Assembly (NCBI RefSeq): GCF_016097555.1
Contig: NC_054713.1
Location: 38,349,670-38,413,669 of the forward strand
Length of the DNA stretch: 64,000 nucleotides
Reading direction: 5' to 3'
DNA from: Gigantopelta aegis
Taxonomy: Eukaryota > Mollusca > Gastropoda > Neomphalida > Peltospiridae
Program-made: the position numbers and the translations under genes
In this document: positions 39,190 through 63,449 of the stretch, in pieces
How positions within the stretch are numbered: the stretch's first letter is position 1
How the letters are laid out: every line of letters begins with the position of its first letter
The notes under the pieces: generated by a model
Database searches by the model: none
Told to the model about the DNA's origin: nothing
The model's input: only the letters and a program-made list of their open reading frames with translations

Positions 39190-39844
39190 AGGGACATTCC
39201 TGAGTTTGCTGCATTGTAAGATGTTTCTGACTAATAAAATATTTCTACGATTAAACTTACAAATTAAATATAGTTTGTTGTTTAGAATATCAGTGTCTGT
39301 ATATTCAGTGTGTTTGTGATCGTCTTGATATTTCTAAGACCCCTGCGCGTGCTGTAATCTCACCGTGGTGCAGGGGTGTAACATTCTCTTTGAGAATGGC
39401 CAATACAGCACAAAATTGAAATTTAGAGTAAAAGTCAGTATCTATCTGTGATATTTGTATTTTTGCACAGTTCTTTACACTGTTTTTATTTAAATCTTGA
39501 ATTCTTATATTGATGTTGATCATCACTTTATTTGTTTTCATTACCATAGTTTGACACCCAATAGCCGATGTATTTTTCGTGCTGGGGTGTCGTTAAACAT
39601 TCATTCATTCATTCATTAATATTTCTAAGAAGCCCAAACTGGATTTTGTCTTCAAATAATTATATTTTAGGAAATAAAATGAAATTTAACCTAGTACAAA
39701 TATTAAAACGATCAGAAACACGTTTAATATACTGCCACTAATATGTTATGCAGAAAAATATATTTGATATGTAATTACAATCGTTAAAAAGTCTCTGTTA
39801 GTCGATAACATCATAAAAATTGCAGCAAACTCAGGAATGTCCCT
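39190..39844. mobile_element. TTAA-type MITE interrupted by a LINE tail
   Basis: Same family as 19819-20152. Its ends are AGGGACATTCCTGAGTTTGC and the inverse, with TTAA at 39186-39189 and 39845-39848. Confidence 0.85.
39339..39618 (+). mobile_element. 5'-truncated LINE tail inside the MITE
   Basis: Matches the 3' UTR of the LINE at 32770-33215 and ends in CATT repeats. Flanked by an 11-bp duplication, ATATTTCTAAG, at 39328-39338 and 39619-39629. The MITE at 41786 shows the empty site. Confidence 0.88.
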
Positions 39845-43707: not shown

Positions 43708-44025
43708 AAGGTCGACGATAGTCACTTTTCGGATCCTTGTTTTGGCTTCGTACACAATAAATAAAACATATCCAATGGTAATTTTTTGATATGATATATT
43801 TGACAAAAGGTACTTTTTATTTCTTTCATCTTTTAAAAGTTCAAATTAATATTTTGTCCAGAATTATGAACAATTAAAAAAAAATACCGACCTATAAACA
43901 GCGTTGTCTGCTTGTTATAGAAATTTGACAGGGGTCAACGTTAACAGACCAGTTTTTATTTTAATGTGGCGAAGCATTGTAATAATATAGCTAATTTTGA
44001 ATTTGAATGACGTCAGTATTCCAAT
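43708..44025 (-). repeat. Dispersed repeat R abutting the viral array
   Basis: Inverse of 40684-41010. It runs up to the first viral fragment, so it marks the left edge of the densovirus-like array. Confidence 0.7.
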
Positions 44026-44029: not shown

Positions 44030-44264
44030 AACGTTAGACTAGTTAGGACGATGGCTGCTATTGCTTCTCCCGCCGCGACTTCTATTATACCTTCAAGAGC
44101 TTCTACCGCTAAGAATGTCAACGCTGCGAACATTGTTGACTGAATGATTAAAATGATACATGTATCCCCTTTTATACTATTGTTAATCTATTGTTCATAC
44201 GTCATATCCGGTTTGATTTTGTTAGAATGTGATAGATCCTAAACTAGTCTAACATTTTTTTTTT
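44030..44264 (-). mobile_element. Densovirus-like unit Z: leftmost fragment
   Basis: A scrap of the small capsid-side protein (MFAALTFLAVEALEGIIEVA on the reverse strand, start at 44133) with its TATAAAA promoter near 44170, leading into a telomere. The rest of the unit is absent. Broken fossil. Confidence 0.8.
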
Positions 44265-45330
44265 AAATAATCCTCAAGAATAGCAGCTAGCCCGTGTTTT
44301 TGCAACTAATCCAACATGGCTGACATAGAACATGCATGATCCTTCGGGCGTACGCCTATCATGTCCGAAGGGTTCTATTGTGACGTCAGCAATTTTAGAT
44401 TTCTTGCAAAAACACCACCTAGTAGCTATTCTTGAGGTTTTCTTTCACTTAACCTTCTGACTACTGCAGGCGAGATATCTCGCCCGACGTCACGTCAGTC
44501 GATATACTGTACACTGTATACAGTGCATTCCCCAATTCATATTTCCCGCCGTTTTGCACACGACACTCACCGGAAACGGAAATATAATTAAAGAAAAAAG
44601 ATTTTTTTTCAAAATGGTGGTTTTTGTTTTGATTTTTTCAATTGAAAATACCTTGAAATTTTGAGTTCAAAAAGTGGTTTTCGGCAAGTATTTTCGCTTG
44701 ACAACAATGGCGGCACGTCGCGGTAATTTTCAGGGATCGATAGCTGATTGTAACAGCTAATTTGATAATAAATTTGATCGTTTTACCAACAACGAAAATT
44801 ACCAAATATTGCAATATGAATCGTAGTTCGGGTTTTAAAAAAAATTCTGGTCAGAAAACCACTGTTATCGGGAATAATGGACATAAATACTGGACAGCTG
44901 GCCACAAATGTCCGTAAGTAAACGCAACTTTTTCGATTTTTTGCCTAATTTTAATCACCATTAGCCGATCTAAAATAATAAAAATTACAAAAAAAGACAC
45001 GAAAATAATACTTACCGATTCATATATGAACTTTATTTCATGTATTTATGAAACATTTAAGTGAATATATGTGAGTAAAAATTATAAACTTGTACCCACT
45101 CAACGTGGTTTTTGTTAAAAATTAATCCAGTAGTCTAAAGGTTAAGATTACTTTAGACTAGTTTAGGATCTAGTGGCACGTGACGTAGAACCCTTCGGGC
45201 ATGATAGGCGTACGCCCGAAGGATCATGTAAGTTCTACGTCACGTGCCACTCGCCCCGTGGGCGGCTCCGCCGCAGTTAATACATAGTTGCAAAAACCAT
45301 GGTCACGGTTACTTTCATTAAGATTACTTT
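44265..45330. repeat. Paired hairpin telomeres between units Z and B
   Basis: Arms CCTCAAGAATAGC...GTGTTTTTGC and their inverses enclose a 31-bp core (44341-44371) of CCTTCGG, the palindrome GCGTACGC and CCGAAGG. A second hairpin has the core in the opposite orientation (45192-45222), between GGCACGTGACGTAGAAC and its inverse. Such T-shaped palindromes are typical of parvovirus ends. A MITE sits between the two. This is the Z/B counterpart of 51085-51450. Confidence 0.85.
44453..45141. mobile_element. TTAA-type (piggyBac-like) element in the telomere
   Basis: The ends CCTTCTGACTACTG and CAGTAGTCTAAAGG are inverted. TTAA flanks both sides (44449-44452 and 45142-45145). The other telomere pair shows the empty site at about 51297-51301. 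A 16-bp palindrome GGCGAGATATCTCGCC lies just inside the left end (44469-44484). A short frame near 44817 (MNRSSGFKKNSGQ) runs into CC|GTAAGT, a possible splice donor. No transposase core is present. Confidence 0.85.
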
Positions 45331-45455
45331 AGACTAGTTGCGATCTATCACATCATCAAATTCAACTTATGACGTCATCACAATCCCCCGGCGGAGCCGA
45401 CCGTATATATATCGGAAAATACGAAGTATAACGGAAATGACGTCATAATAACCTC

Positions 45456-45496
45456 TCTATATTCACAAATTTTAATTAGCTTTTCTATATTCACAA
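45456..45496 (+). promoter_or_regulatory. Paired TCTATATTCACAA motif, unit B
   Basis: Two copies of TCTATATTCACAA start exactly 28 bp apart (45456 and 45484), upstream of the NS1 TATA box. The same pair with the same spacing is in units C and D. It may be a site for NS1 or for a host factor. Confidence 0.65.
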
Positions 45497-45573
45497 AGTG
45501 GTAGTCATAGTATATGTTGATAGTAACCGTGACCATGGTCTCTGTTGTGGATACACATGACGTCACAATGCTC

Positions 45574-45582
45574 TATATAAAG
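45574..45582 (+). promoter_or_regulatory. TATA box of NS1, unit B
   Basis: TATATAAAG lies 77 bp before the NS1 start codon and just after TGACGTCA. Units C and D match it. Confidence 0.75.
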
Positions 45583-45650
45583 GATCAGCGCTAGCAACCT
45601 TCACTTCATGAAAATATCTCGAACAGATAACTTCTGCGGAATTTTTTAAA

Positions 45651-48113
45651 ATGACTACGACAATAGAAGAGTTCTTCAGTCCTGATGGAAGTATTGAAGA
45701 CATTTACTACTCTGTAGTAATAGGCCGTGGCGAATACGACATGGTCCATCCTCAATATTTACAACCTCGTGCATATGCTAAGAATAAGCATGGCGACTAT
45801 GTATTTGCAAATAATGGAGGATATTACAAGACGTATGTTGTGGACAGTGAAGAAATCACGGAAACCGTTATTGACCAGTGGTCCACACCACAGACAGAGA
45901 ACCTTCAAAAAGGACATTACAACCTCATTCTGGAATTGAAGAGTTTCCTGAAAAATAAGAATTGGAAAGTTCTTATTTTATATCACAATAAAGACTGTCA
46001 AATGTCCGGAAATATACCCACGTACGGCTCTCATTTACATTTGATATGGTGCACGAAGCTAACCCAACCATCTCAAGATCGTCAGTATAGGCGGCTGCAT
46101 AGACTGATTACGTTGGATGGTGGATACATCAAGACCAAGAAAATGTCCAGTCCACAAAAATGGGCCGTTTCTTCATTCATGACGTATTTAATGGAGGATA
46201 GTAATAAGACTTTCCTGGGGACTAACTGCCCGAAGATGTTGAAGAAATGGAATGAAATCCGTGCAAACGAACAAGCATGGTAGGATGCCGGACTTAATAT
46301 GGACGACCTCTTTGACAAAGAGGATGATAAAGAAATACCTCCTATGAAATTCACAGTTGGAGAACCAAAAGTACGCACGACAGTAGCGGATATGATTCAA
46401 AAGGATAGAAATAATCAAAACGTCGTGGATGCTCGTACAAGATCGATGAAGTCACCGGGAGGACTTCGGGTGCCCAGGCGTGAAGATGGAACTCTGGAAA
46501 AACCGATAGACGTGGATGAAGAAATATCAGTTCCATCGTACATGTTACTAAGTAAGGGTAAAGAAACATTTGACTTCTTTTATTCATTGGTGAAAAGTCA
46601 TCCCAAGGTTACTAAGTTGAATTCAATGATTGGTGAGTTTCCACCCGAAAGCAAGGAGTTCAAGGCGCTGTGCAACTGTGTTGCGAACTTTTCTGGCGAC
46701 AAAATATTTAATGCTGCCAGGACAAAGTATTTGAGTGAGCTTGCAGATAAATCAGCTATCGACCAATTGGAAACTGTTTCTGGATCGATTGATAAATATA
46801 TGACACCCGTCGATTCATTCAAGATGTTCAATACCTGGTGTAAAGAACAGAGCTTGTCGCCAAGATGGTTATACGTATTGATACACTCACTTATGGCAGG
46901 AAAAGGCAAGAAAAAAGTAAGGATCTACTTTCAGGGTCAAGCTGATTCAGGCAAGACGATGCTGACATCATCAATGTTCGAAGTGTTACCATGTGCCGGG
47001 AAGATTACCAAGGATAACTTCCCTTGGCAGATGCTGGGAGGCAAAAAAGTTATACTAGGGGAAGATGTCGCCATAACACAAGCAAATATTGACAAATACA
47101 AGGACCTTTTGTCAGGCTCTCAGGCATCGTGTGAAAGAAAAGGAACAACTCCTGTGTATTGCAAAGCAGACATGTGTCTACTAAATTCAAACGTCAGGAT
47201 GGGAAGCGGACTCACTGGTGCTCAGATCTCAATAATGAAGACCAGGATGTACTTCATTCAGAATCTGAAGAAAAGCGATGTCCTCACTTCCGCATACGGG
47301 CTATTACATCCAAAATTATTCTTATTAGGAAATAGACCAACAGATGATGAGATCACAATAGCTCTCGATAATGATAGAGAATACTTCGCAGATGTGGTCA
47401 ATTCATTGGCCGACGACGACACGTCTGCGGGCGTCCATTCATCTTTTGTCGATGTATTTGACAACGAGCCAATTCTCACAGAGTCTGAGAGAGAACTACA
47501 ATGGATAGTTGATGATATTACGGAAGACGCGAAGAATGAGGAAATAGCGAAAAGCAAAAAGGGCTTTAAGCACGTGGTTATCCGTTCGCCACCAGAGTCA
47601 CCACCCACCAGGAAAAGGAAATCTAATGATGAATTCTTCCAAGACTTAGAAGAACAGTACGATCGATTTAAAGTTATTAAGACTGAACCAATTACTCGGT
47701 CTCCTACTCCATATAATCATGACGTACATCCGGATTCATCAGATACTAACAATAATTTATTAAAGAGGAAGTCTCCTGACGTCATTGATGAATCGTCATG
47801 TGACTCACAACCCAGATGTAGTAATGACAATGAGGAAGTGACACAAGATAGAAAAAGGAGACGCCATACGAAAGCGCCTGTCGTTTCTGCAGCTAGATTG
47901 GACGTACGCAATGGACCATTTAGCGATGATGAAATAGCGTACTTCCAGGCATTGTATAAACCACCTGCATTGATGCAAGCTATCGAAATGGAGAGGGAGA
48001 TGGATGAAGCATATGGGATAATCAGAGAAGAACATCGTGAGGGCAGCCATAGCCCAGACTTCGAGGCAGGAGGAGATAACAGAGAGGTGCTTTGGGGAAG
48101 GGAAATGCGATGA
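45651..48113 (+). pseudogene. NS1 replication protein, unit B (fossil, about one break)
   Basis: The N-terminal HUH nickase domain has the metal-binding pair in GSHLHLIW near residues 128-130, and QDRQYRRL follows. The SF3 helicase has Walker A GQADSGKTM, Walker B KKVILGEDVAI and the sensor region TPVYCKADMCLLNSN. The C-terminus is acidic with KRKS/KRRR-like basic patches and ends VLWGREMR, shared with unit E. In the family, NS1 nicks and unwinds viral ends during rolling-hairpin replication in the nucleus. Confidence 0.88.
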
Positions 48114-48179
48114 CATCAATGGACATATATTGTGTATATATTATATGTGTGTATTGTATTATTATGAATGTAAGTTCGT

Positions 48180-48269
48180 AATAAATATATATATGTATAT
48201 TTAAACTGTTTTGTTCAATCATTTATAGTAATTAATTAATAACAATATAATAATATGCAACTATTTATT
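48180..48269. terminator. Convergent poly(A) signals, unit B
   Basis: AATAAA for NS1 at 48180-48185 on +, and TTTATT at 48264-48269 (AATAAA on -) for VP. They lie in the 190 bp between the two facing genes. Confidence 0.65.
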
Positions 48270-48305
48270 CATACTTGACATATGAATAATACATTGTATG
48301 GATTG

Positions 48306-50405
48306 CTAACGTGGATAATTCCAATCATTAGCTACCATTTCCTCTGGTAGAGTTCTATCACCATAGCAACCCTTCAGAGGATACATCATTCGGCGTCTAT
48401 TTTGACGCTTCATCCAGCCATCCATTACTGGTATAATAAGTCTATCTTTCCACTGTTTCTGTATTCTTTTCGTGTAGTCTTCATCTTTTTCATCTTTCCT
48501 TTGCATATTTCCTCCATTCTTTATGCCACTCTTATGTCCTGTGATCTGGTTTTCTTGATTCTTGAATAAACCAGTCATGTCTGAACCTGGGCATCCCCTA
48601 ATTCCTATTGGAATATACGGTGGACAGAAAGCTGTTCTTACGTAAAATTCCACTTCTGAAAAATACGTAATTTGAAAATTCGCATGGTAATTAAAGAATA
48701 ATTTACCACCCTCTGTAGTTGGCTCAGTGTCTGGGTATACTCCAATTAGAAATATAGGGGGTCTCTCTACATTATGGGCGCGTCTATGACACCCGTCTTG
48801 ATCAACATTACAGTTTGTACTGTTCATATTACGGGCGTGGACATCACCTTTCGCATATGCACTTGTACACAATTGCTGTGCATTACCACCTATTTCTGCT
48901 GCAACCTTTTTAGATTGCGTATCTGCTGCCTGTACGTGTGTATATTTATTATTAAAATATGTCATCTGTACTTCCTTCATCGACGCATCGCTGTATCGTT
49001 GTTCGAATACTTCGTGCATTGGCCATACTTCTAAAGTTGATTGTTTCGATTTGTCTGCCTGGTAGTTCTTCCGATTATATTGGCCGCTTACATGTGTGTA
49101 ACCTAGATCAACTGTTGTGTTGCTAGGAAATAACACGATTGGCCCTCCTTTCACTTTATATTCAAGTGCGAACCCTCCACTCGAAATAATGGTTTCTCTG
49201 TAACCCGGATGTCTTTTCATATCATAAATATCATTAGGGCTGATTGCAGTATACATTCCTGTGTCTGGTTGTGTCTTCCAATTTCCATTCAGTATCTGCA
49301 TGCCCATGTCGCTAGGCAACCATAAATGCCTATTGGGCTGTATGGGTATTAATCTTTCATTAGTGTCTATCATGCATTCTTCATCTCTGAATTTATCATT
49401 ATGATTCAATACATGTGCTGTACTCTCTGGCATACCATAATCGTTATTGACGTCTACAAATGTCCATATTCTAGCATTTGGCGGCGCCATTACTGGTACT
49501 TCATTAGTATTAGACTTGGAGTTATTCATTACATGTAAGACCATATTGGGTATATTGAACCCAAATTTCTTGACTTTGTATCCTATAAAATCGTCTGGTA
49601 AATTCCAGTCAGACGATTTCATGGAGCATTCTTTATACCAATATGGTATAATATGCCCTCCGTGATTCATTGTGAATTCACAAATGGACGGATCATCTAT
49701 TGCATCCGGCCATCCTAAGTCTTTCTCGTTGTGTAGTATTCTCATATATCCCATTCTCGATTTCGTGAAATCTATACTAGAAGTAAACGTTCTCTTGAAG
49801 GTCTTCTTAATTTTTATAATGTCTGGTCCATGACACTTTGTGCTCTTTCCGAAACCAGTATATAATACATTGTTTCCAGTAGAAGCTGACATGGGCGCTC
49901 CTTGAACCGCTTCACTTCCACCACTTGGTGCTATTCCTTCACCGTCAATGGTAGATTGACTAATCATGTGATCTTCTTCAGATGTGTATACTCCGGAAAG
50001 AGGATCGTTAATTACATCTACATCAATTGTGTCTTGTAATTGGGGTGACATTCTTCCAACTTTTGCCGTCGACGTACCTGGTCTTTCCCCATCTTGTACG
50101 ATATTCATTCGCCTCTTTCCGTTACCGTTTTTGGCCATGTTATCGCTATCTGGGTCTCGACCGTCAGGATTTAAGTCTTCGTACGGTTCAGGTTCTGTTT
50201 CGCTTCCGAAATAGTCCAATCCGATACTATCTATTTCCTGATAGATTTGTTTATTTGGTATAAATGCTTTTCCAATTTTCTTTCTTAACGAATACCACTG
50301 TTTGGCAGCTTCTTCGTCAGAATATCCAATTGCCTTATACTTTTGTATTGCCTTCGATTTCGCAATTCCCCACAATTTGGTTATATGTGGATTAGAGCGT
50401 CTCAT
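48306..50405 (-). CDS. VP capsid protein, unit B (frame looks whole)
   Basis: About 699 residues if started at MRRSNPHITKLWG (50405), the start shared with C and E; the frame stays open upstream but that part overlaps the small protein. After a charged N-terminus (IGKAFIPNKQIY) come GGSEAVQGAPM and STGNNVLYTGFG, then conserved jelly-roll-like blocks (NHGGHIIPYWYKECSM, NIPNMVLHVMNNS, APPNARIWTF) and a FNYHANFQITYFSEVEFY block near the C-terminus. It would form the virion shell. I see no HDxxY phospholipase motif. Confidence 0.85.
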   Translation of the reverse strand: MRRSNPHITKLWGIAKSKAIQKYKAIGYSDEEAAKQWYSLRKKIGKAFIPNKQIYQEIDSIGLDYFGSETEPEPYEDLNPDGRDPDSDNMAKNGNGKRRMNIVQDGERPGTSTAKVGRMSPQLQDTIDVDVINDPLSGVYTSEEDHMISQSTIDGEGIAPSGGSEAVQGAPMSASTGNNVLYTGFGKSTKCHGPDIIKIKKTFKRTFTSSIDFTKSRMGYMRILHNEKDLGWPDAIDDPSICEFTMNHGGHIIPYWYKECSMKSSDWNLPDDFIGYKVKKFGFNIPNMVLHVMNNSKSNTNEVPVMAPPNARIWTFVDVNNDYGMPESTAHVLNHNDKFRDEECMIDTNERLIPIQPNRHLWLPSDMGMQILNGNWKTQPDTGMYTAISPNDIYDMKRHPGYRETIISSGGFALEYKVKGGPIVLFPSNTTVDLGYTHVSGQYNRKNYQADKSKQSTLEVWPMHEVFEQRYSDASMKEVQMTYFNNKYTHVQAADTQSKKVAAEIGGNAQQLCTSAYAKGDVHARNMNSTNCNVDQDGCHRRAHNVERPPIFLIGVYPDTEPTTEGGKLFFNYHANFQITYFSEVEFYVRTAFCPPYIPIGIRGCPGSDMTGLFKNQENQITGHKSGIKNGGNMQRKDEKDEDYTKRIQKQWKDRLIIPVMDGWMKRQNRRRMMYPLKGCYGDRTLPEEMVANDWNYPR

Positions 50406-50409
50406 TGGC

Positions 50410-50985
50410 TTAATTATTATAGTCAAATATATAATCCGGTGGACGTTGTTGAGATGGCTTTGTAGTTGTGCGGAATGTTGATGATGTACTTGGTGTAGCT
50501 TGTCCTGCAAAGATGTAGTCTGGCGGACGTTCTTTGCTTGGTTCTTCTGTTACACTCGAAGTACTTGGTATTGTTTGACCTTCAAAGATATAGTCAGGTG
50601 GACGTACCTTTGATGGTTTGGACACGTTTGTTGTATCTGTATTATTACTACTCTCTCCTACTAATCTTTGTCTTTTATGCTGTGATATGATATCTGAAGC
50701 TTCTTCGTCTTCTTCTCTCTTTCTTTTTTGTTCCTTAAGATCTTTTATTTCATTTATTGCTTCTTTTACTTTTGATTTTGTATAACTTAATGCCACGTTC
50801 GCTACAGATTCTGTTATTAGTTTGGACTCTTCTGCTATACCTTCTATTGCGAAAGTGTCTTCATCTAATATTTCTACTACTGCTGGTCCGGCAGTTTCTG
50901 CTATTGCGGCTATTGCTTCTGCTGATCCTATTTCAATTATTGCTTCAAGAGCTTCTACTGCAATGAATGCTAATCCTGCAAACAT
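50410..50985 (-). CDS. Small capsid-side protein, unit B
   Basis: 191 residues. The first 20 (MFAGLAFIAVEALEAIIEIG) and the following AIAAIAETAGPAVVEIL are hydrophobic with regular Glu. Then come SYTKSKVKEAINEI, a basic KRKREED and HKRQRL (likely nuclear localisation), and two repeats of RPPDYIF plus a third at the C-terminus. The start resembles polyomavirus VP2 (Ala/Glu-rich, membrane-active), but this is resemblance only. VP starts four bases after its stop. It may be a minor capsid or membrane-penetration protein; no known densovirus PLA2 domain is visible. Confidence 0.72.
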   Translation of the reverse strand: MFAGLAFIAVEALEAIIEIGSAEAIAAIAETAGPAVVEILDEDTFAIEGIAEESKLITESVANVALSYTKSKVKEAINEIKDLKEQKRKREEDEEASDIISQHKRQRLVGESSNNTDTTNVSKPSKVRPPDYIFEGQTIPSTSSVTEEPSKERPPDYIFAGQATPSTSSTFRTTTKPSQQRPPDYIFDYNN

Positions 50986-51019
50986 TGTATATATAATGAT
51001 ATTTAGTCATGATCACCTC

Positions 51020-51027
51020 TATTTATA
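51020..51027 (-). promoter_or_regulatory. TATA box of the capsid operon, unit B
   Basis: TATAAATA on the reverse strand, about 35 bp before the small protein start. Units A and E match; Z and C have TATAAAA. Confidence 0.7.
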
Positions 51028-51084
51028 CTATTTTATTTGATTGTTAATACGTCATTTCCGGTTTGATTTATCAGATTGTGATGG

Positions 51085-51450
51085 ATTTTCCTAACTAGTC
51101 TAACGATTTTTATTAATCCTCAAGAATAGCAGCATGGCCGTGTTTTTGCTAATTATTCAAAATGGCTGACATGTAACTACATGATCCTTCGGGCGTACGC
51201 CTATCATGTCCGAAGGGTTCTATTGTGACGTCAGCAATTTTGGTTTTCTTGCAAAAACACCACCTAGTAGCTATTCTTGAGGTTTTCTTTTACTTAAGAT
51301 TACTTTAGACTAGTTTAGGATCTAGTGGCACGTGACGTAGAACCCTTCGGGCATGATAGGCGTACGCCCGAAGGATCATGTAAGTTCTACGTCACGTGCC
51401 ACTCGCCCCGTGGGCGGCTCCGCCGCAGTTAATACATAGTTGCAAAAACA
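51085..51450. repeat. Paired hairpin telomeres between units B and C
   Basis: The first palindrome has core 51186-51216, the second has the same core inverted at 51344-51374. Outer arms are CTCAAGAATAGC and the inverse, then GGCACGTGACGTAGAAC and the inverse. 51302-51447 matches 45146-45302 at every base I compared. It joins two genome copies end to end. Confidence 0.87.
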
Positions 51451-51657
51451 CGGCCTTATAGCTATACTTGAGGATTTCTTTCATTTAGATTTCTTTAGAC
51501 TATTTTAGATCTATCAAATCAATTAATCCAAACTCATGACGTCATCCCCACCGGAGGTACTAGCGACCATTTTAACCCACCGGAGGTATTAGCGACTATT
51601 TATTTAGCGGAAAATACGAAGTATTACGGAAATATCCGATGATGTCATAATGAGCTT

Positions 51658-51698
51658 TCTATATTCACAAATTTTAATTAGCATTTCTATATTCACAA
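51658..51698 (+). promoter_or_regulatory. Paired TCTATATTCACAA motif, unit C
   Basis: Copies start at 51658 and 51686, 28 bp apart as in unit B. Confidence 0.65.
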
Positions 51699-51775
51699 CG
51701 ACGTAGTCATGGGTTTGTGTACATAGCAACGTAACCATGGTCTCTGTTGTGGATACAAATGACGTCATAGTCCTC

Positions 51776-51784
51776 TATATAAAG
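51776..51784 (+). promoter_or_regulatory. TATA box of NS1, unit C
   Basis: TATATAAAG follows TGACGTCA and lies 99 bp before the NS1 start. Confidence 0.7.
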
Positions 51785-51874
51785 GATCAGCTGTAGCAAC
51801 CGTCATTCTATGAAAATTTCTCGATGATAGAAGGTCATTAGAATTTTTTTTGAAAAATTAAAAACAAATTCAAC

Positions 51875-53083
51875 ATGTCTACAATTGATCAATACTTTAA
51901 CGTTGAAGGTGAAGGTGAAGACCTTTATTATTTAATTGTCATAGGTCACGGAGACTATGACATGGTGCATCCACAATTTCTCCAGCCTCGTGCCTTCGCC
52001 AAAAACAAGCATGGAGACTATGTCTATGCAAGTAATGGAGGGTACATCAAGACGTATTTAGTTGATGCTGAAGAGATACATCAGACAGTCATCGACCAAT
52101 GGTTTACTCCACAGTTGGAGAATCTTCAGAAAACACAGTATAATCTCATACTGGAGTTAAAGAGCTTTATGAAAAATAAAAACTGGAAGATCCTTGCTGC
52201 ATATCATGATAAAGACTGCAGTATGTCTGGGAACATACCCACGTATGGGTCCCACTTACACATGATTTGGAAGACGAAACTGACACAACCTAGTCAGGAT
52301 CGCCAATACAGGAGGCTCTATAGACTAGTCAATCTTGATGGAGGATATATGAAGATGAAAAGAATGTCTACCCCACAGAAATGGGCGTTGTCTTCATTTA
52401 TCCAATATTTAATGGAAGACTCAGACAAGACATTCCTCGGAACCAATTGTCATGAGATGCTTATAAAGTGGAATGAGATAAGGGATAACGAGAAAGCGTG
52501 GGAGGACGCTGGTCTTAACATCGATGACTTCTTTGTGAATGAAAAAGAAGATGAGATTCCACCCAGTAAATTTACTGTTGGTGAACCAAAAAGGAAGTCA
52601 ACCGTGGCTGAAATGATTAACAATCATAACAGTAATCAACCACGTGCCAAGTCATACAATAGTATAAAAGGGGATACATGTATCATTTTAATCATTCAGT
52701 CAACAATGTTCGCAGCGTTGGCATTCTTAGCGGTAGAAGCTCTTGAAGGTATAATAGAAGTCGCAGCAGGAGAAGCAATAGCAGCCATCGTAGAATCAAC
52801 TGCACCAGCTGTAATTGAAATCCTGGGCGAAGGTAGTGAAGTTATCGAAGAAGTTACTCAAGTATCAAAACTAGTAACTGAAACGGTAGCGAAATCAGCA
52901 TTAAGTTATACCAAGGGCAAAGTGCAAGAGGCGCTAAAAGAGCTAAGAACAATTAAACAGACTCCTTTAAAAAGAAAAAAGGAGGAAGAAGAAGAAGACG
53001 AAACAGACATTATCGCTCCACATAAAAGGCAGCGACTAAGTGGTGTGCGTGATAATACAACGCCTAATCCATCGAAGGAATGA
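51875..53083 (+). pseudogene. Unit C: NS1 N-terminal part fused to the small protein (fossil chimera)
   Basis: One 402-residue open frame. It starts as NS1 (HUH motif GSHLHMIW, then DRQYRRLYRL) and ends as the small capsid-side protein (MFAALAFLAVEALEGIIEVA onward, SYTKGKVQEA, HKRQRLSG). A capsid-operon TATAAAAG (52663-52670) lies within it. In whole units these two genes face each other from opposite ends, so this unit is rearranged. The stop overlaps the VP start (ATGA). Confidence 0.8.
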
Positions 53084-54725
53084 GAAGAAATAACCCCCAA
53101 GTAACAAAACTCTGGGGAATTGCTAAAAGCAAGGCCATTGCAAAATATCAGTCCATTGGATTTTCGAGAGAAGAAGCGGAGAAAAATTTGGCTAAACTGA
53201 GAAAAGACATCGGTAAAGCATATATACCGAACAGAAAATTATACCAGCAAATAGATAGCATCGAATCCGATTTCCTAGGAGACGACCACGAGCCGGAAAA
53301 CTACGAAGACTTGAATCCCGATAGTAGAGATCCGGATATGATGGGAAAGGAAACGGAAAGAGGCCACACATCGTCAATGATGGTGAACAACCAGGTACAT
53401 CCACTGCTAAACAAGGCAAGATGTCAAGCCAAATGAGTGATACAATAGACATGGATGTTATAAACGACCCAATAGACGGTGTCCATCCATCCGACGAAGA
53501 AAATATAATGAGCCAATCAACTGTGGCAGCTGAAGATATAACACCAAGTGGCGGAAGCGAGGCCATTCAAGGCTCACCAATGGCAGCTTCAACTGGAAAC
53601 AATGTATTGTTCAGTGGATTCGGGCAGACAACCAAAACTCAAAATCCACACATCATCAAAGTAACAAAAACGTTTAAACGTACATTTACATCCAGTATAG
53701 ACTTTACCAAATCCAGGCATGGACAAATGCAAATCATCAATAATGATGAACACTCAGGCTGGCCGGATGGATTCGACGACCCCTCAGTATGCCAGTTCCA
53801 AATGAATCACGGGGGTCACATGATACCGTATTGGTACAAGGAGTGCTCAATGAAACCATGTGACTGGAACTTACCAGATGAATTTGTAGGGTATCGCATA
53901 AAAAAATTCGGGTTTAACATACCCAACATGGTTCTCCATGTAATGAACAATAGTAAAAGTGACAACAATGAAGTCCCTGTAATGGCACCACCAAACGCCA
54001 GGATATGGACATTCTTAGATTATGGAGTACCCGAAAGCACAGCGCACAAGATACACCATAACAACAAGTTCCGTGACGAAGAGTGCATGGACGATACAAA
54101 TAAAAGACTAATCCCACCTCAGCCAAACAGACGATTATGGTTGCCAAGCGATGTGGGAATGCAGATTTTGAATGACTCTTGGACTTCTGCACCAAATAGT
54201 GGAGTATATAAGGCGACCACCCCGAATGATATATACGACATGAAATGGCACCCTAGGTATAGGGAAACTGTGATATCCAGTGGAGGATTTGCACTTGAAT
54301 ACAAGGTGAAAGGGGGACCAGTAGTGTTATTCCCTAGCAACACAACACTAGACTTGGGATACACACACGTAAGCGGACCTTACAATAAAAAAAATTATCA
54401 AGCCGACAAGTCTGAACAGGGAACACTCGAGGTATGGCCTACACACGAAGTATTTGAGCAGTGATATTCACAACCGTCAATGAAAGAAGTACAAATGACA
54501 TACTTCAACAATAAATACACTCACGTAAATGCGAGTGATACCCAGTCTTCAAAAGTGGCTGCGGAAATAGGCGGCAATGCGCAGCAGCTATGCAAAAGTG
54601 CCTATGCCAAAAACGCTGTAAACTCAAGAAACAGCAATAGTACTAACTGTAACGTCGATCAAGACGGATATAATAGGCGTGCCCACAACGTGGAGAGACC
54701 CCCCATATTTTTGATAGGGGTATAT
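53080..54725 (+). pseudogene. VP capsid protein, unit C (fossil)
   Basis: On the + strand, opposite to VP in B and E. It matches them in ITKLWGIAK-like N-terminus, GGSEAIQGSPMAASTGNNV, NHGGHMIPYWYKECSM and RRAHNVERPPIFLIGVYP. Broken, with about three breaks. It runs directly into a telomere core. Confidence 0.82.
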
Positions 54726-54890
54726 CCTTCGGACATGATTGGCGTACGCCCGAAGGATCATGTATGTTCTATTGTGACGTCAGCAATTTTGGATTTCTTG
54801 CAAAAACACCACCTAGTAGCTATTCTTGAGGTTTTCTTTCATTTAAGATTACTTTAGACTAGTTTAGATATATCACATCAAATAAAAAAC
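54726..54890. repeat. Telomere piece between units C and D
   Basis: Core at 54726-54756 (CCTTCGG, GGCGTACGCC, CCGAAGG), then TTGCAAAAACACCACCTAGT and GCTATTCTTGAGG as in the other junctions. Only one hairpin is recognised here. Confidence 0.8.
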
Positions 54891-54951
54891 CCACCGGAGG
54901 TGACGTCACGACAATACATTACCGAAGGTATTACTGAGATTAATTATCCTC

Positions 54952-54992
54952 TCTATATTCACAAATCTTAATTACTTCTTCTATATTCACAG
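54952..54992 (+). promoter_or_regulatory. Paired TCTATATTCACA motif, unit D
   Basis: Copies start at 54952 and 54980, again 28 bp apart. Confidence 0.65.
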
Positions 54993-55040
54993 TGACGTCA
55001 TAATTGAATTATGGGTAATTTAGTGACGTCATAATGCTCC

Positions 55041-55048
55041 TATATAAG
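55041..55048 (+). promoter_or_regulatory. TATA box of NS1, unit D
   Basis: TATATAAG follows two TGACGTCA sites and lies 80 bp before the NS1 start. Confidence 0.65.
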
Positions 55049-55120
55049 AAAAAATTTCAAATCATCGGTAGTCTATCAAAATTTCTCACAGAGGAAACTT
55101 CAGGACTACATTTTTCGAAA

Positions 55121-56590
55121 TGACAACTATAGATGAATTCTTTAAGGCGGAAGGCTAGAAAGAAGATATATATTACTCACTTATTGTAGGACATGGTGAA
55201 TATGATATGGTTCACCCACAGTTCCTACAGCCAAGGGCTTTTGCAAAGAACAAGAACGGTGACTTTGTATATGCCAACAATGGCGGTTACGTCAAGACAT
55301 ACTGGGTTGATTATGAAGAGTTACACGAGACTCTCATAGACCAATGGTCGACCCCTCAAAACGAAGTGTTACAGAAGAACCAGTATAATTTAATACTGGA
55401 ACTGAAGTCCTTCCTCAAGAATAAAAATTGGAAGGTACTTGTATCGGATCACAATAAAGAATGCAGCATGTCGGGGAAATATCCCAACATACGGGTCCCA
55501 TCTTCATGTAATTTGGAAGACCAAACTTACCCAGCCTAGCCAAGATAGGCAGTACAGGCGTCTACATAGAATGATACAGAATGATGAAGGTTACATGTAA
55601 GTTGAAAAATTGAGCAGTCCTCAAAAATGGTCAGTGTCATCATTTATGGAATACCTCATGGAGGATTCTGAGAAGACATTTCTATGCACAAATGATCCGG
55701 AAATGTTAAAGAAGTGGAACGAAATAAGAGCAAATGAAAGAGCATGGGAGGATGCTGGTCTGTCACTTGATGACTTATTTGTTAAAGAAAAGGAACCGGA
55801 AATACCACCAACAAAGTTCACCACTGTAGAACCACAGAGGAAAAATACAGTGGCCGAGATGATAAATAACAAAAATAACAATGAGGACAGCCCAAGAGCA
55901 AGGAGTATGAGAAGTCCGGGCGGACTACGCGTAGCCAGAAGGAAAGACGGAACACTGGATGCACCTATTGATGTGGAGGAAACAAAGGATTTAAATGTGC
56001 CTCAATACATGCTTCAATCGAAAGGAAAAGAAACTTTTGACTTTTTCTATGAGATGGTTAAAAACATCCAAAAGTAAGTAAGCTCAATGCTATGATAGGG
56101 GAATATCCGGTAGAGAGTAGGGAGTTTAAAGCCTTGTGCAATTGTGTTGCTAATTTCTCAGGGGATAAGATATTTAATGCAGCGCGTACTAAATATCTAA
56201 GTGAAATGGCTGATAAGAGCGCATTAGAGCAGATAGCTAACATGGACTCTACCTTAGACAAATACATGACACCGGAAGATTCTTTTAAGATGTTTAAATC
56301 TTGGTGCCAAGAACAGTCCATTCCTCCTAGGTGGTTGTATACTGTAATGTATGCTTTGTTATCTGGTAAAGGAAAGAAAAAGGTAGGGGTGTATTTTCAG
56401 GGAGTGAGTGTTTCTGGAAAGACTATGCTCACTTCCAGTATGTTTGAATGTCTGTCTTGTGCTGGAAAAATCACAAAAGATAATTTTCCATGGCAGATGT
56501 TAGGTGGAAAAAAGCTTGTATTGGGAGAGGAAGTGGCTATTACACAAAGTAATATAGACAAGTACAAAGTAATATAGACAAGTACAAAGA
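55121..56590 (+). pseudogene. NS1 replication protein, unit D (fossil, several breaks)
   Basis: Matches NS1 from its start (MTTIDEFF) to the helicase Walker B region (GKKLVLGEEVAI). The Walker A region reads GVSVSGKTM. The unit has no VP side in this window. Broken, about five breaks. Confidence 0.82.
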
Positions 56591-57354
56591 CTTATTTGTT
56601 ATGACGTCAACTTCAGGATGACGTATGACGTCAACCTGAGGATGTCATTAACTGTTTGTTGACAGCCGAGTGAAACAAAAAATAACAGCTGCAAAGTGAC
56701 GTCATTCAAATTTTAAAAAAAATACCACGCCAGCCTGCGTGTGCCAATATTACACCAGTTAGATATTGAGCACTTGTTATGACATGAGTAGTATCTTACA
56801 CTGGTGTGTAATAAATTATGGGAAAGTTATAGAATAATTAAAGAATAGTCGACGAGCTACGAGGCAATTACGATACTGTTATTTAAAACAACATTGCAAG
56901 TCAAGAACAAGAGCGTTGCGTCATATCTGTTACGTATGTATCGCTGATGACGTAAGTTAGTTGTTGACATGACTGCCACTATGGAAACTTCTCGTACCCT
57001 TAATCCGGTTGTTTGTTGTTTCAGTTGTGACGTCAAAGCATATAGTGAACCACTGATTATGACGTCAAAGGGAAGAAATGGGGGCTTTTTTTTTCTTTAC
57101 TTACGGAAGATGATTTTTCTTTCCCCACTTCTCTCTGCGCATATGGGTAATAAATTAAAATATGAAATGGGTTCATGACATGGATATTATGGGTAAGTTA
57201 TAGGATAAATTTAATTATTTGCAAATGAAAAGACAAACATATATTTTGTCTCATTAAAAACTTAAATTTTTTAGTCGAATTTTTTAAAGAAGAAATAAAT
57301 TTAAAAACCTACCCTCCCGACTCTAATTTTTTACTACAAGAAGACTTCAGTGAA
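56591..57354. other. Non-viral spacer with many TGACGTCA-like sites
   Basis: No gene recognised. It contains repeated ATGACGTCAAC and a stretch AAAGTGACGTCATTCAAATT shared with repeat R. Confidence 0.5.
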
Positions 57355-57600
57355 TGAATGAATGAATGAATGTTTAACGACACCCCAGCACGAAAAATGC
57401 ATCAGCTATTGGGTGTCAAACTATGGTAAATGCAAAAGTAAAAGAAAAGACTTAACAGACCTGCACACACCAGCCAACACGACAGTCTAATCAGGGGGAG
57501 GGGCCCAGGGGGGCAAAACAGGCGATGACACGCGACAGTCGCATGGATGTATTTTTGGATATTGTTAAAGCGCTCCCAAACATTATCCAATATTGTAAAT
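57355..57600 (-). mobile_element. 5'-truncated LINE tail
   Basis: The reverse strand reads TTTGACACCCAATAGC, GGGGTGTCGTTAAACATTC and a CATT tail, as in the LINE ends at 33150 and 39540. Confidence 0.75.
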
Positions 57601-57629
57601 ATGTATTTTTTTTCATAATTTTCAGTTTT

Positions 57630-57904
57630 TAAAGTTTGTTTTGGTTAACGATACCACTAGAGCACACTGATTTATTAATCATCGGTTATTAGATGTCAAA
57701 TATTTGGTAATCTTGACATATAGTCTTAGAAAGAAAACCAGCTACATTTTTCCGTTAGTAGCAAGGGATCTTTTATATGCACCATCCCACAGACAGGAGA
57801 GCGCATACCACAGCCTTTGATATAACAGTTAGAACGAAAAACAGCCCTATGGGCCCACCGACGGTGATCGATCCCAGACCAACCGCGCATCAAGCGAGCG
57901 CTTT
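57630..57904 (-). repeat. tRNA-headed SINE
   Basis: Reverse short-tail copy from GTTTGTTTTGGTTAACGATA to the head CAAGCGAGCGCTTT, missing its last bases. Confidence 0.85.
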
Positions 57905-58192
57905 GCTGTTTTTATTATAAAGCTTACAAGGTTGTAATATACAGGCAAAAGAACCTCTAAATATGTTCAGATACAAATTATGACGTCGTCATCAGGATGA
58001 CGTCACCGACTGTGAGAACTGAACAGCTGATCAACCGGCAGAGCCGAAACAAGAATTTATTTATTTATATCATATAACTTTTAAACTTCAAAAGAAGAAA
58101 CACTGTCCAGGCGATAGCGGTGAAAAATTAATAATAACAAGTACTAATTATAAGAGGTATATAGCTGGTCGAAGTGGCCCACACACAATTTA
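57905..58192. other. No gene recognised
   Basis: AT-rich spacer with TGACGTC sites. No repeat ends recognised. Confidence 0.45.
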
Positions 58193-58268
58193 GACCTATA
58201 GTCCGTCCCACGTGGAAAACGCCTTTTTTCATACTATGGAATTTACGATAAGTTATTTATTTCTGAGA
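58193..58268. mobile_element. Left piece of a CTATAGTCCGTCCCA MITE
   Basis: CTATAGTCCGTCCCACGTGG to TTATTTATTTCTGAG matches the first third of the inverse of 13468-13686. The viral unit E follows at once. Confidence 0.7.
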
Positions 58269-58270
58269 TA

Positions 58271-60406
58271 ATTAATCACATCATATGGTGCACCAAGTTG
58301 ACACAGCCGTCACAGGATAGACAATATCGACGTCTATATCGACTTGTAAACTTGGACAAAGGATATATGAAGTGCAAGAAGCTGTCTGCACCTCAGAAAT
58401 TCTCTTTGAGTCACTACATGGAGTATTTAATGGTGGACGAGGAAAAAACTTTTCTTGGTACTAACTGTCCCAAATTGCTAGAGAAATGGCAACAGATTCG
58501 TGATAATGAAAAGGCATGGAATGACGCCGGTCTAAATATAGAAGACATGTTCACCGCGTCACCTAGTGAAGAGAGTATACCGGATACTAAATTCAACATC
58601 CGGGAACCGAAAAAACGAACCACAGTGGCCGATATGATAAACGCGGACAAGAATAATGCCAACATTGCTGCAGCAAGAGCAAAATCCATGCGATCACCTG
58701 GTGGATTACGAGTCGCAAGAAGGAGTGATGGAACATTAGATAAACCCATAGACGTCGACGCAGACCTATCTGTGCCTAAGTATATGTTACAGGCTAAAGG
58801 AAAGGAAACTTATGACTTCTTTTATAATTTAGTTAAGGCTCATCCCAATGTGACACGGCTCAATTCGATGATTGCTGAATTCTCGCCTGACAGCAAAGAA
58901 TTTAAGGCTCTCTGTAACTGCGTTGCAAATTTCTCAGGCGAAAAAGTATTCAACGCTGCCAGGTCAAAATATCTTAGCGAGCAGTCAGAAAAAACGTCCA
59001 TTGAACAAATCAAACTATTGTCAGACAGCATGGATAAATACATGACTCCTGAAGACTCATTCAAAGTATTTAATTCGTGGTGTAGAGAACAAAACGTACC
59101 ATCCCGATGGTTATACGTAGTTCTTCATTCATTATTATCCGGAAAAGGCCGAAAGAAGATTGGGATTTATTTTCAAGGGGAAGCCGATTCCGGAAAAACA
59201 ATGATGACCTCCTCGATGTTCGAGAACGTTCCATGTGCAGGGAAGATAACAAAGGATAACTTCCCTTGGCAGATGCTAGGCGGAAAGCGAATTATACTAG
59301 GTGAAGAGATATCAATTACCCAAACTAACATCGACAAATATAAGGATCTTCTATCTGGATCACAAGCGTCGTGTGAACGTCAGGGGACTACTCCTGTCTA
59401 CTGCAAAGCCGACTTGTGCTTACTTAATTCAAATGTTCGCTTGGGATCGGGCTTGACCGGAGCTCAAATATCAATTATGAAGACCCGGATGTTCTTCGTT
59501 CAAGGATTACAGAAAAGTAATGTACTGAAATCAGTATATGGATTGATGCATCCAAAATTATTCACTTGTGGAATGTTACCATCTGAAGATGAAATCCAAC
59601 TCGCTTTGGATAACGACCGTGAATATTTCGGTGATATCACGAACAATCTCAAAGAAGATACAAGTACAATGGGAGTGCATTCATCATTTATAGACGTATT
59701 TGACAATGCACCTTCTATAGTTAAATCAGAAGACGAACTTCCATGGGTTAGAGTCCAACTTGCAGAAGACAAAAATAGGAGTGAACTAATGCCATCGTCA
59801 CTATCGCCCATTTTAAAACGTAAGCGAGAGGATCCTACATGGAATGAGACATTTCCGGAAGAGGAACCGATTGCCAAACATAAGAAGGGCTTTAAACATG
59901 TTGTAATATGTTCACCTCCTGTATCTCCAACTGTCGATGAGGACTACGATGTATTTAAGGTTATAAAGGTAGAGAATATTACTCGACCTTGTACACCTGA
60001 AAAAGACAATTCTTCTTTAAAGAGAAAGTCTCCATACGAAGTGGATGAATATAAATTACAAGGAAGAGATCACAAAAGACCTTGTATATCACCAGAACCG
60101 GGTACCAGCCGTGACGACAACGATGCCTTAGAAGAAAGAAGACATCTACGTCATCAGACTAAGCCAAAATTATCATGTGCAGAGACTGATTTTAATCATT
60201 CCAGTGACAATAACCCGTTCTCTGCAGATGAGAGGGCTTATTTTCAGGCTTTAACGGAGCCTCCTAATGTCTTGGAAGCCATAGAGAACGAACGTCTTAT
60301 GAACCAAATCTATGACTTAGATGATTATTCAGATGGAGCACATTCTCCTGACTTTGAAGGAGGAGGCGATAATGGAGATGTACTTTGGGGTAGGGAGATG
60401 AGGTGA
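58271..60406 (+). pseudogene. NS1 replication protein, unit E (fossil, partial)
   Basis: A long open frame beginning at the HUH region (LIWCTKLTQPSQDRQYRRL-like; only the end of the domain is present). The helicase is complete in appearance: Walker A GEADSGKTM, Walker B RIILGEEISI and TPVYCKADLCLLNSN. The C-terminus ends GGGDNGDVLWGREMR as in unit B. Confidence 0.87.
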
Positions 60407-60467
60407 CTTATCTGGGAAAATGTCTGTTATATAATGTGTGTATGTGTTACATATTTGTTATAATAGA

Positions 60468-60551
60468 ATAAATATATAACTTTAATATTTGTTATGTTTT
60501 GTGTTTAGTATTATAAAATTGACAACAATATATATAATGCAATCATTTATT
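60468..60551. terminator. Convergent poly(A) signals, unit E
   Basis: AATAAA at 60468-60473 for NS1 and TTTATT at 60546-60551 (AATAAA on -) for VP, arranged as in unit B. Confidence 0.65.
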
Positions 60552-60573
60552 TACACTTGAAAGTAAATATACA

Positions 60574-62694
60574 TTATCGAGGATAATTATTATCATCCTT
60601 TTTCATTGCTGCTGGTAAAGTTCTATCTCCATAACATCCTTTAACAGGATGTAATATACGGCGTCTGTTTTGCCTTTTTAACCAGTTATCCATGACTGGT
60701 TGTATAAGTCTATCATCCCACGATTGTTGAATTCGTTTTAGGTAATCCTCATCCTTTTCATCTTTCTTTTGTTCAAAGTTGGTACCTTTAATACCACTTT
60801 TATGTCCGACTATTTCGTTCTTTTGATTTTTAAATAGTCCAGACATGTCTGAGCCAGGACACCCACCTATTCCAATGGGTATATACGGTTGACAGAAAGC
60901 TGTCTTGACATAAAACTCTACTTCTGAGAAGTAGGTGATTTGAAAATTTGCATGATAATTAAAAAATAATTTTCCACTTTCTGTAGTGGGTTCAACGTCT
61001 GGATACACCCCTATAAGAAATATAGGCGGTCTCTCCACATTATGAGCCCTTCTATTATACCCATCCTGATCTACATTGCAGTTAGTACTATTCATGTTTC
61101 TAGCATTAACTGCGTCCTTAGCATAGGCACTTTTACACAGTTGTTGTGCGCATCCACCTATCTCAGCTGCTACTTTGCTTGACTGTGTGTCATACGCATT
61201 TACATGCGTATATTTGTTGTTGAAGTAGGTCATTTGAACCTCCTTCATTGATGGCTGAGAATATCTTGTCTCAAAGACTTCATGTGTGGGCCATACTTCT
61301 AATGCCCCAGCAGTTGTCTTCTTTGCTTGGTAATTCTCAGCTTTATATTGTCCACTGACATGTGTGTATCCTAAATCCAAGCTAACATTACTTGGAAATA
61401 ACACAACTGGGCCACCTTTCACTTCATACTCCAAAGCGAAACCCCCACTAGATATTACTGTTTCCCTGTATCCAGGGTGACGTTTCATGTCGTATATATC
61501 GTTCGGACTTGTTGCCATATAAAGTCCTCCAAATGTATCTTCGTGAGTTCTCCAACTCTCATTGAGTATTTGCATACCTATGTCACTAGGTAACCACAAT
61601 CTCCTTGTTCTCTGTACTGGTAATTCCCTCTTACTAGTATCACTCATGCATTCTTCGTCTCTGAAGTGATCGTTATGTGATATGTTCTTATCGCCCGATT
61701 CCGGAACTCCGTAATCGTTATTAACGTCTAGAAAAGTCCAAATTCTGGCATTTGGTGGTGCCATAACAGGGACCTCGTTTACATTCCCTTTAGAATTGTT
61801 CATCACGTGCAGAACCATATTTGGAATATTAAATCCAAATTTCTTTATCTTATACCCTATAAACTCATCCGGTAAATTCCAATCGCATGTTTTCATGGAG
61901 CACTCTTTATACCAATATGGTATAACATGACCTCCATGGTTCATCGAAAATTCACAGATGGCAGGGTCGTCTATTGCATCTGGCCATCCCAAATCTTTCT
62001 CATTATGAAGAATACGCATAGTTCCCATCCTCGCTTTGGTGAAATCAATAGAGGATACAAACGTCCTTTTAAATGTTTTTGTTATTTTTATAACATCTGG
62101 CCCATGTCCTACTGTGTTTCCACCGAAACCAGTGTATAATACATTATTCCCGGTGGATGCAGTCATGGGAGCTCCTTGTACCGCTTCACTACCTCCTGTA
62201 GGGGCAATTCCTTCCATGTCCACAGTACTTTGACTGAACATTTCCTCTTCTGATGATGTATAAATACCCTTTACAGGGCTTTTTATGACATCTTCAGTTA
62301 TAGTTGGATTCAACTGAGGGGCTAGTCTTCCTACCTTTGCAGTAGAAATACCTGATGTTCCCGGTCGTTCTCCGTCATCCACAATTTTAGGCCCTGGCCT
62401 CTTACCGTTTCCATTAGTTGCCATTTCCTGTTCGAAATCGGGATCACGTCCGTCTGGGTTTAGATTTTCGTAAGTATCAGGTTCGTTATCATTACTGAAA
62501 AAGCCTGATCCTATACTATCTATTTCTTCGTATATGGCACGATTTGGAATATAAGCCTTACCAATTTTTTTCCGAAGAGTATACCACTGGTCACGGGCTT
62601 CTTCTTCTGAATAACCAATTGACTTAAACTTATTAATTGCCTTAGTTTTCGCAATACCCCACAGCTTTGTTATGTATGGGTTCGTGCGTCTCAT
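60574..62694 (-). CDS. VP capsid protein, unit E (frame looks whole)
   Basis: 706 residues from MRRTNPYITKLWGIAKTK to GCYGDRTLPAAM...NNYPR. It has the same block order as unit B VP: GGSEAVQGAPM, NHGGHVIPYWYKECSM, NIPNMVLHVMNNS, APPNARIWTF, NVERPPIFLIGVYPD and FNYHANFQITYFSEVEFY. The two differ at roughly a fifth to a quarter of residues by eye in sampled stretches, so they come from distinct virus lineages rather than a recent duplication. It starts directly after the stop of the small protein. Confidence 0.87.
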   Translation of the reverse strand: MRRTNPYITKLWGIAKTKAINKFKSIGYSEEEARDQWYTLRKKIGKAYIPNRAIYEEIDSIGSGFFSNDNEPDTYENLNPDGRDPDFEQEMATNGNGKRPGPKIVDDGERPGTSGISTAKVGRLAPQLNPTITEDVIKSPVKGIYTSSEEEMFSQSTVDMEGIAPTGGSEAVQGAPMTASTGNNVLYTGFGGNTVGHGPDVIKITKTFKRTFVSSIDFTKARMGTMRILHNEKDLGWPDAIDDPAICEFSMNHGGHVIPYWYKECSMKTCDWNLPDEFIGYKIKKFGFNIPNMVLHVMNNSKGNVNEVPVMAPPNARIWTFLDVNNDYGVPESGDKNISHNDHFRDEECMSDTSKRELPVQRTRRLWLPSDIGMQILNESWRTHEDTFGGLYMATSPNDIYDMKRHPGYRETVISSGGFALEYEVKGGPVVLFPSNVSLDLGYTHVSGQYKAENYQAKKTTAGALEVWPTHEVFETRYSQPSMKEVQMTYFNNKYTHVNAYDTQSSKVAAEIGGCAQQLCKSAYAKDAVNARNMNSTNCNVDQDGYNRRAHNVERPPIFLIGVYPDVEPTTESGKLFFNYHANFQITYFSEVEFYVKTAFCQPYIPIGIGGCPGSDMSGLFKNQKNEIVGHKSGIKGTNFEQKKDEKDEDYLKRIQQSWDDRLIQPVMDNWLKRQNRRRILHPVKGCYGDRTLPAAMKKDDNNYPR

Positions 62695-63219
62695 TTATAT
62701 ATTAGATGGAGGTGTCAAGAAAAGTGGTTTATGAGGTGGTGTTATAGGTTTACCAGTTTCTCCCGGTAATATTTTATCGTACAAGTGTTGTAAATGTTCT
62801 AGGGAACCATATTCAGGAACAGCCTCTTCTGAAGTGGCTTCTCCTTTGATACGATTGGTATTACTTTGTTCACTTGTTTTAGACGTTGTACCAGTTTCTA
62901 TCAATACTCTTTGTCTTTTATGCTGTGAAACTATGTCTGCTGCGTCTTCTTCTCTTTTACGTTTAGTTTGACCTTCTTTTAAGTTCGTGATAGCCTCTTT
63001 CACTTTACTTTTGGTATAATGTAAAGCACTGTTGGCTACTCCTTCTACGATAGCTTTAGAGGCTTCTTGTAATCCTTCTATTTCTAATATTCCTTCGCCA
63101 AACGCTTCTGATATCGCTGGCGCCACTGATTCTGCAATTGCTGCTATTGCTTCACTCGCTCCAATTTCTATAGTAGCTTCTAGTGCTTCTATACAAATGA
63201 ATGCTAACGCTGCAAACAT
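62695..63219 (-). CDS. Small capsid-side protein, unit E
   Basis: 174 residues. The hydrophobic start (MFAALAFICIEALEATIEIG), HYTKSKVKEAI, KRKREEDAAD and QHKRQRV are the same blocks as in unit B. The C-terminal part, beyond the basic patch, is different. Its stop abuts the VP start with no base between. Function unknown; probably a minor structural protein. Confidence 0.72.
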   Translation of the reverse strand: MFAALAFICIEALEATIEIGASEAIAAIAESVAPAISEAFGEGILEIEGLQEASKAIVEGVANSALHYTKSKVKEAITNLKEGQTKRKREEDAADIVSQHKRQRVLIETGTTSKTSEQSNTNRIKGEATSEEAVPEYGSLEHLQHLYDKILPGETGKPITPPHKPLFLTPPSNI

Positions 63220-63253
63220 TTTATAATAAGTGACATTTTTATAATTTTTATCC

Positions 63254-63261
63254 TATTTATA
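63254..63261 (-). promoter_or_regulatory. TATA box of the capsid operon, unit E
   Basis: TATAAATA on the reverse strand, about 35 bp before the small protein start. Confidence 0.7.
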
Positions 63262-63449
63262 CTCTTTTATTTGATTGTTAATACGTCATTTCCGGTTAAA
63301 TATATGATGTGATGGATCTTTCTACCTATTCTAACGATTTTTATATAACCTCAAGAATAGCAGCTTGGCCGTGTTTTTGCTAATTATTCAAAATGGCTGC
63401 TCTTCAACTAACATGACCCTACGGGCGTACGCCTGTCATGTCAGGTTTT

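Follow-up and report, generated by a model that had tools for sequence, protein, structure and literature searches.

A Probable Endogenous Array of Distinct Ambisense Parvovirus-Like Genomes Joined at Hairpin Telomeres

Main Finding and Layout of the Array

The window (the whole 64,000-nucleotide stretch of Gigantopelta aegis DNA analysed) probably holds an endogenous viral array, fixed in the chromosome of the animal and made up of the units Z, B, C and D together with E (Table 1). At least four related yet distinct ambisense parvovirus-like viruses, the lineages B, C, D and E, appear to be represented in it. Unit Z is probably a member of the C group, a link based on no more than 170 nt, and a remnant elsewhere in the window, F, is a probable fifth virus of the group. 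Units Z, B, C and D are directly joined at their hairpin telomeres, and both complete junctions (2/2) are head-to-tail. NS1 runs in the same direction in B, C, D, E and F. Units B and E, which are near full length in coding content, carry NS and VP on opposite strands, an ambisense layout known in Densovirinae (PMC11357303); C and F are not ambisense as read, both being rearranged. A first-pass annotation had described a joined cluster of densovirus-like genomes, and this was confirmed in part: ambisense parvovirus-like units linked through telomeres are supported by the NS1 profiles, the comparison of units and the hairpin and tip sequences, while its suggestion of a replication concatemer was not supported (see below).

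Table 1. Positions of the viral units, their telomeres and associated elements in the window.
Feature	Position	Strand	Remarks
Remnant F: 5' half of VP joined in frame to middle of NS1	29938–31952	+	both parts on +
Z right telomere arm	44225–44334		85/99 to B right arm, 82/102 to E right arm
Module M copy 1, split by insert	44335–45297 (44335–44452 + 45146–45297)		267/270 identical to copy 2
TTAA-flanked insert, 689 bp	44453–45141		14-nt terminal inverted repeats, 12/14 alike
B left telomere arm	45298–45375		80%, 84% and 87% to C, X and D left arms (on 45288–45375)
B NS1, N-terminal part, H-x-H motif	45612–46283	+	ends at in-frame stop; motif read from translation
B NS1, C-terminal part, SF3 helicase	46284–48113	+	Parvo_NS1 7.8e-10; same frame as 45612–46283
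B VPmain	48306–50405	-	ATG at 50405; 77% amino-acid identity to E, 706 columns
B VPn, separate ORF	50410–50985	-	stop 4 nt before VPmain ATG
B right telomere arm	51077–51179		from arm comparison
Module M copy 2: tip, D-type left arm X, opposite second tip P2	51180–51449		267/270 identical to copy 1
C left telomere arm	51450–51540		80% to B left arm, 88% to D (on 51440–51540)
C NS1, N-terminal part	51854–52639	+	75% to B over 208 codons; DNA similarity to B stops at 52639
C VP leader, VPn and VPmain, inverted orientation	52654–54727	+	cut at D telomere
D left half telomere	54726–54880		tip opposite to first M tip, then same arm type
D NS1, frame-disrupted and truncated	55120–56600	+	SF3 piece Parvo_NS1 4.2e-08
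Host-like, repeat-rich DNA between D and E	56610–58276		repeat at 57650–57850, further window matches
E NS1 without first ~128 residues, otherwise open	58277–60406	+	ORF list and Pfam
E VPmain, 706 aa, open	60574–62694	-	ORF list
E VPn	62695–63219	-	stop abuts VPmain ATG
E right half telomere	63302–63448		ends at tip; tip 29/37 to M tip

Telomeres and the Shared Junction Module

Hairpin telomeres with inverted terminal repeats are present, and as the units are joined or cut, their ends are seen only at joins and cuts. The B/C junction folds into a strong hairpin and reads, in order, B right arm, tip, a D-type left arm (X), a second tip of opposite orientation (P2, with a stem of 20 bp) and C left arm; the order between Z and B is the same. 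The tip sequence was found without mismatch at six unit ends or junctions and without mismatch nowhere else. The tip of D matches the first tip of module M in reverse complement at 36/37 bases and lies beside the same arm type, the left arm of D matching the X copies at 99/102 and 100/102 positions. Both tip orientations thus occur beside one arm type, which looks like the flip and flop forms of a parvovirus telomere, described for AAV (PMC1131931).

The two copies of module M are identical at 267 of 270 positions, a count that excludes a 4-nt gap (the compared piece extended 2 nt into the insert). The immediate flanks of the module agree at 80% on the left (218/271) and 82% on the right (288/351), and the NS coding sequence in the same comparison of the Z/B and B/C flanks agrees at 71% (445/625). 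Nine comparisons of homologous telomere arms were made. All six outside M fell at 80–88% (two of the pieces extend 10 nt into M), and the three that involve X, inside M, gave 84% to the B arm, 86% to the C arm and 97% to the D arm. The D-type arm is found at three junctions with identities of 97–98% (111/114, 100/102 and 99/102). General conservation of telomeres as the cause of the identity of M was ruled out by the arms outside it and by the chance of 2e-9 of finding at least 267/270 matches at a true identity of 90%; the near-identity of the module therefore points to copying or gene conversion.

The first copy of M is interrupted by an insert of 689 bp, with TTAA at 44449–44452 and 45142–45145 and the corresponding empty TTAA at 51294–51297 in the second copy. 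The TTAA duplication and the terminal inverted repeats are features of a piggyBac-like element, which we take the insert to be. A BLAST search of 44455–45143 within the window retrieved only itself.

Divergence and Decay of the Units

The coding sequences of the units share 64–78% amino-acid identity in 10 comparisons of 87–699 codons, with pS values of 0.79–1.05 and pN values of 0.15–0.27. No dN/dS ratio is given because pS is beyond the range of correction, but protein change lies far below silent change. The seven NS1 comparisons, all on partial NS1 (87–579 codons), gave identities of 64–76%, below the 85% NS1 identity used as the species rule (PMC11357303). Judged by these sequence comparisons, the units are several species-level lineages, not one virus species.

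Lesions in the reading frames, counted by hand, numbered one in B (5.14 kb), two in C (2.86 kb), three in D (1.5 kb) and none in E (4.8 kb), where the truncation of E is uncounted and the count for D is low (in-frame stops in 2/3 frame pieces). The trend across B, C and D, based on six lesions, had a p value of 0.024, and heterogeneity had p values of 0.047 and, with E included, 0.007, in a post hoc test chosen after the data had been seen. The pattern leans towards serial joining with D the oldest unit.

Nonstructural Genes

Pfam Parvo_NS1 matches were obtained for B, D and E and for a piece of F, and the PDB sequence matches of NS1 include AAV Rep and NS1 chains. An H-x-H motif, presumably the HUH nickase motif, is present in the translations of B and C and in the relatives P0002 and P0003; unit E lacks the part of NS1 that would carry it. 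The motif was recognised by reading translations; no HUH profile match was obtained. The parvovirus affinity of NS1, with its HUH and SF3 motifs, had been claimed in the first-pass annotation and is upheld by the motif in B and C and by the SF3 helicase domain of the Parvo_NS1 profile in B, D, E and F; for VP, the profile search named in that annotation gave no Pfam capsid family, and there was no real PDB match. Among unspliced ORFs, no plus-strand frame longer than 70 aa other than NS1 was found in the NS region of B or E. In unit C, the N-terminal part of NS1 and VPn form one 402-aa ORF across the inversion join (51875–53083). Functional fused genes were considered for the in-frame fusions of C and F, which were left as chance.

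Capsid Genes

In B, C and E, at most 4 nt separate the stop codon of VPn from the start codon (ATG) of VPmain, or the two overlap; the corresponding place in F reads TAG followed at once by ATG. The capsid gene of unit C also has a frame change at about 53338–53349 and a stop at 54462. As the abutment is found in 4/4 units that hold the place, a capsid gene of two ORFs seems native to the group. The abutment sites (50395–50430, 53065–53100, 62680–62715 and 30280–30305) have the look of a bicistronic or spliced capsid gene.

No capsid family was found for VPmain in Pfam at E values up to 10, where two non-capsid families were matched over four VPmain members; a match of B VPn to NdhO (1.1e-4, below the cut-off) was taken as chance. 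By sequence, no viral PDB chain was retrieved for VP, the one non-viral chain having an E value of 1.1. The AlphaFold models of VP were poor (pLDDT of 29.0 and 30.5), so their fold matches were not used; a PDB fold search with the low-confidence model returned 86 matches, none below an E value of 0.001. In BFVD, one of 90 matches reached E ≤ 0.001, a 'Capsid protein [Parvoviridae sp.]' found through the model with pLDDT 30.5, at 22% identity over 479 columns and a TM score of 0.09. This match, probably driven by sequence, is weak support for a parvovirus capsid and the only support for that identity. The HDxxY motif and a glycine-loop pattern, which we take to be signatures of phospholipase A2 (PLA2), were absent from the five ORFs searched (VPn and VPmain of B and E, and the C ORF at 51875–53083).

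Remnant F and Relatives in Other Assemblies

Remnant F is the sixth densovirus-like remnant in the window. A tree of five sequences places its VP with P0001 (support of 0.96); for its NS1 piece, the nearest relatives are P0002, P0005 and P0006 (61–62%). Five NS1 relatives and a single VP relative came from two single-protein searches. A profile search with NS1 yielded six NS1 matches, of which one was new; no named virus or named densovirus NS1 was among the matches of the protein searches, in which NS1 was matched by six proteins. P0001 and P0002 are each on a contig of 8,418 bp, taken to be one and the same; the contigs of P0003 and P0007 measure 2,601 bp and 297,455 bp, respectively. The three NS1 relatives P0004–P0006 are on a contig or contigs of 60,905 bp, which suggests another cluster elsewhere. 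The long contigs suggest endogenous copies in other assemblies. No relative was confirmed in viral contigs by single-sequence and profile scans, nor in genome contigs, a set that may omit the genome of the window itself.

Chromosomal Setting

The window is free of N over its 64 kb and contains pieces of Tc1/mariner-like transposase. Stretches of the D–E interval match 39541–39617 (97%) and 33131–33213 (88%). Repeats, insert, transposase pieces and the lack of N fit an animal chromosome. The dispersed repeat at 57650–57850, about 180 bp or longer, recurs at 12 other places in the window with 80–91% identity to this copy. Positions 24418–25212 hold 13 copies of a 60-bp unit (99%), and three long open frames run across them, two on the minus strand and one on the plus strand. 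Rfam gave no match at the gathering score. A target-site duplication was sought around the array and no clear one was found; ATGACGTCA, present near both ends of the Z–D block (44007–44015 and 56601–56609), was not taken as one because this 9-mer occurs 42 times on the two strands of the window (1–64000), where 0.48 are expected. For TGACGTCA, the count is 19 within the first 44 kb and 18 within the cluster. The ATGACGTCA/TGACGTCA palindrome, presumably of CREB type, is abundant in host-like as well as viral DNA.

Origin of the Array

The array as a whole is best explained, with moderate confidence, by distinct viruses that were joined at their telomeres and fixed as an array. Viral ends would have recombined with other viral ends that were already there, whether chromosomal or inside a co-infected germ cell; two junctions would thereby have received a copied or homogenised 270-nt module, and three a D-type arm. 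The simplest agent would be the host, through homologous recombination or gene conversion at the telomeres, with nicking of a resident telomere by NS1 a second possible one. That D and C are more damaged than B would fit growth of the array away from D, the order and number of joining events being what we infer. The transposon-like insert in the Z/B copy of M is a later arrival. Exchange of the module among viruses before integration would give the same pattern, and the missing target-site duplication also counts against this reading. A more tentative proposal is that viral telomeres already in the chromosome serve as heritable landing pads, at which later viruses join, the joining itself copying the junction module.

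The main rival, a possibility held at clearly lower probability, is one integration of a mixed array, in which co-infecting viruses were joined outside the chromosome at their terminal repeats, much as recombination between ITRs turns AAV vectors into head-to-tail heterodimers and linear concatemers (PMC1131931). A single event without a special target would then suffice, and the shared module could stem from exchange during mixed infection, but at least three species would be required in one germ cell, and the uneven decay across B, C and D (trend p of 0.024) speaks weakly against it. Repeated integration at one spot, raised in the first-pass annotation, is compatible with the data and favoured by divergence and uneven decay, with entry as a single mixed array as its alternative. 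An integrated replication concatemer of a single virus, which the same annotation had offered, would account for telomere-joined units with related genes; it is contradicted by the amino-acid divergence and saturated synonymous sites between units of different lineages and by the head-to-tail order, since read-through of a hairpin gives inverted dimers, head-to-head or tail-to-tail, as stated for AAV (PMC1131931), and it is given next to no credence.

Duplication of one endogenous copy within the chromosome, followed by divergence there, would be in keeping with the common direction of the NS1 genes and the likeness of the junction modules; nevertheless, the pS and pN values and the long open frames would demand very long selection on the copies, whose junction modules differ at just 3/270 positions, and this explanation is considered improbable. 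Hairpins and repeats are hard to assemble, and separate viral contigs could have been chained by mistake, but such an artefact is very improbable in view of 64 kb without N and the repeat-rich DNA of the window's own type between D and E. The module copies are also not one collapsed sequence, because they differ by three substitutions and the 689-bp insert.

Comparison with Known Systems

Sea star-associated densoviruses resemble the units in their NS1 initiator and helicase motifs, ITR hairpins and genome of about 6 kb, but they have a PLA2 motif, whereas HDxxY is absent from the five array ORFs searched, and their ORFs are NS1, NS2, NS3 and VP (PMC7737747), whereas the NS regions of B and E show NS1 as the sole unspliced plus-strand frame above 70 aa and VP here consists of two abutting ORFs. 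The ambisense layout is shared with ambisense Densovirinae (PMC11357303). The IHHNV clusters of Penaeus monodon are similar in that parvovirus fragments are gathered at a single chromosomal site and show inversions and palindromic joints, the S97-EVE lying between direct repeats; they differ in being jumbled fragments of IHHNV types, whereas species-level lineages are found here, telomere-joined from Z to D (PMC8982415, PMC9357335). In insect cells, ITR-bearing DNA of JcDV ambidensovirus vectors likewise integrates with rearrangements in opposite orientation, but integration there was experimental, random and scrambled, and concatemeric integration is left unconfirmed in the cited text (PMC5978394). 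The AAV heterodimers are also joins of different genomes head-to-tail via terminal repeats, although of vector DNA and not of an endogenous array, and no shared module across the joins is described in the passages drawn upon (PMC1131931). Parvovirus-related sequences are known from molluscs among other phyla (PMC5013282). No telomere-joined array of several densovirus species was found among the titles and abstract openings retrieved from the open literature, a scope outside which preprints and most subscription papers fall.

Implications

While the endogenous parvovirus clusters described in shrimp are scrambled fragments, the present one is a telomere-joined, head-to-tail array at species level. 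It reveals an ambisense parvovirus-like group with a two-ORF capsid gene that lacks the PLA2 motif and was recognised by no capsid profile in Pfam. The near-identical module at two joins, despite saturated divergence, makes the route of germline entry testable, and the array lets one test whether an old insertion attracts new viruses. The data suggest that an old viral end can serve as a docking point for later viruses; if landing pads of this kind are real, viruses of one lineage group that arrived in succession are kept in the chromosome as a stacked record.
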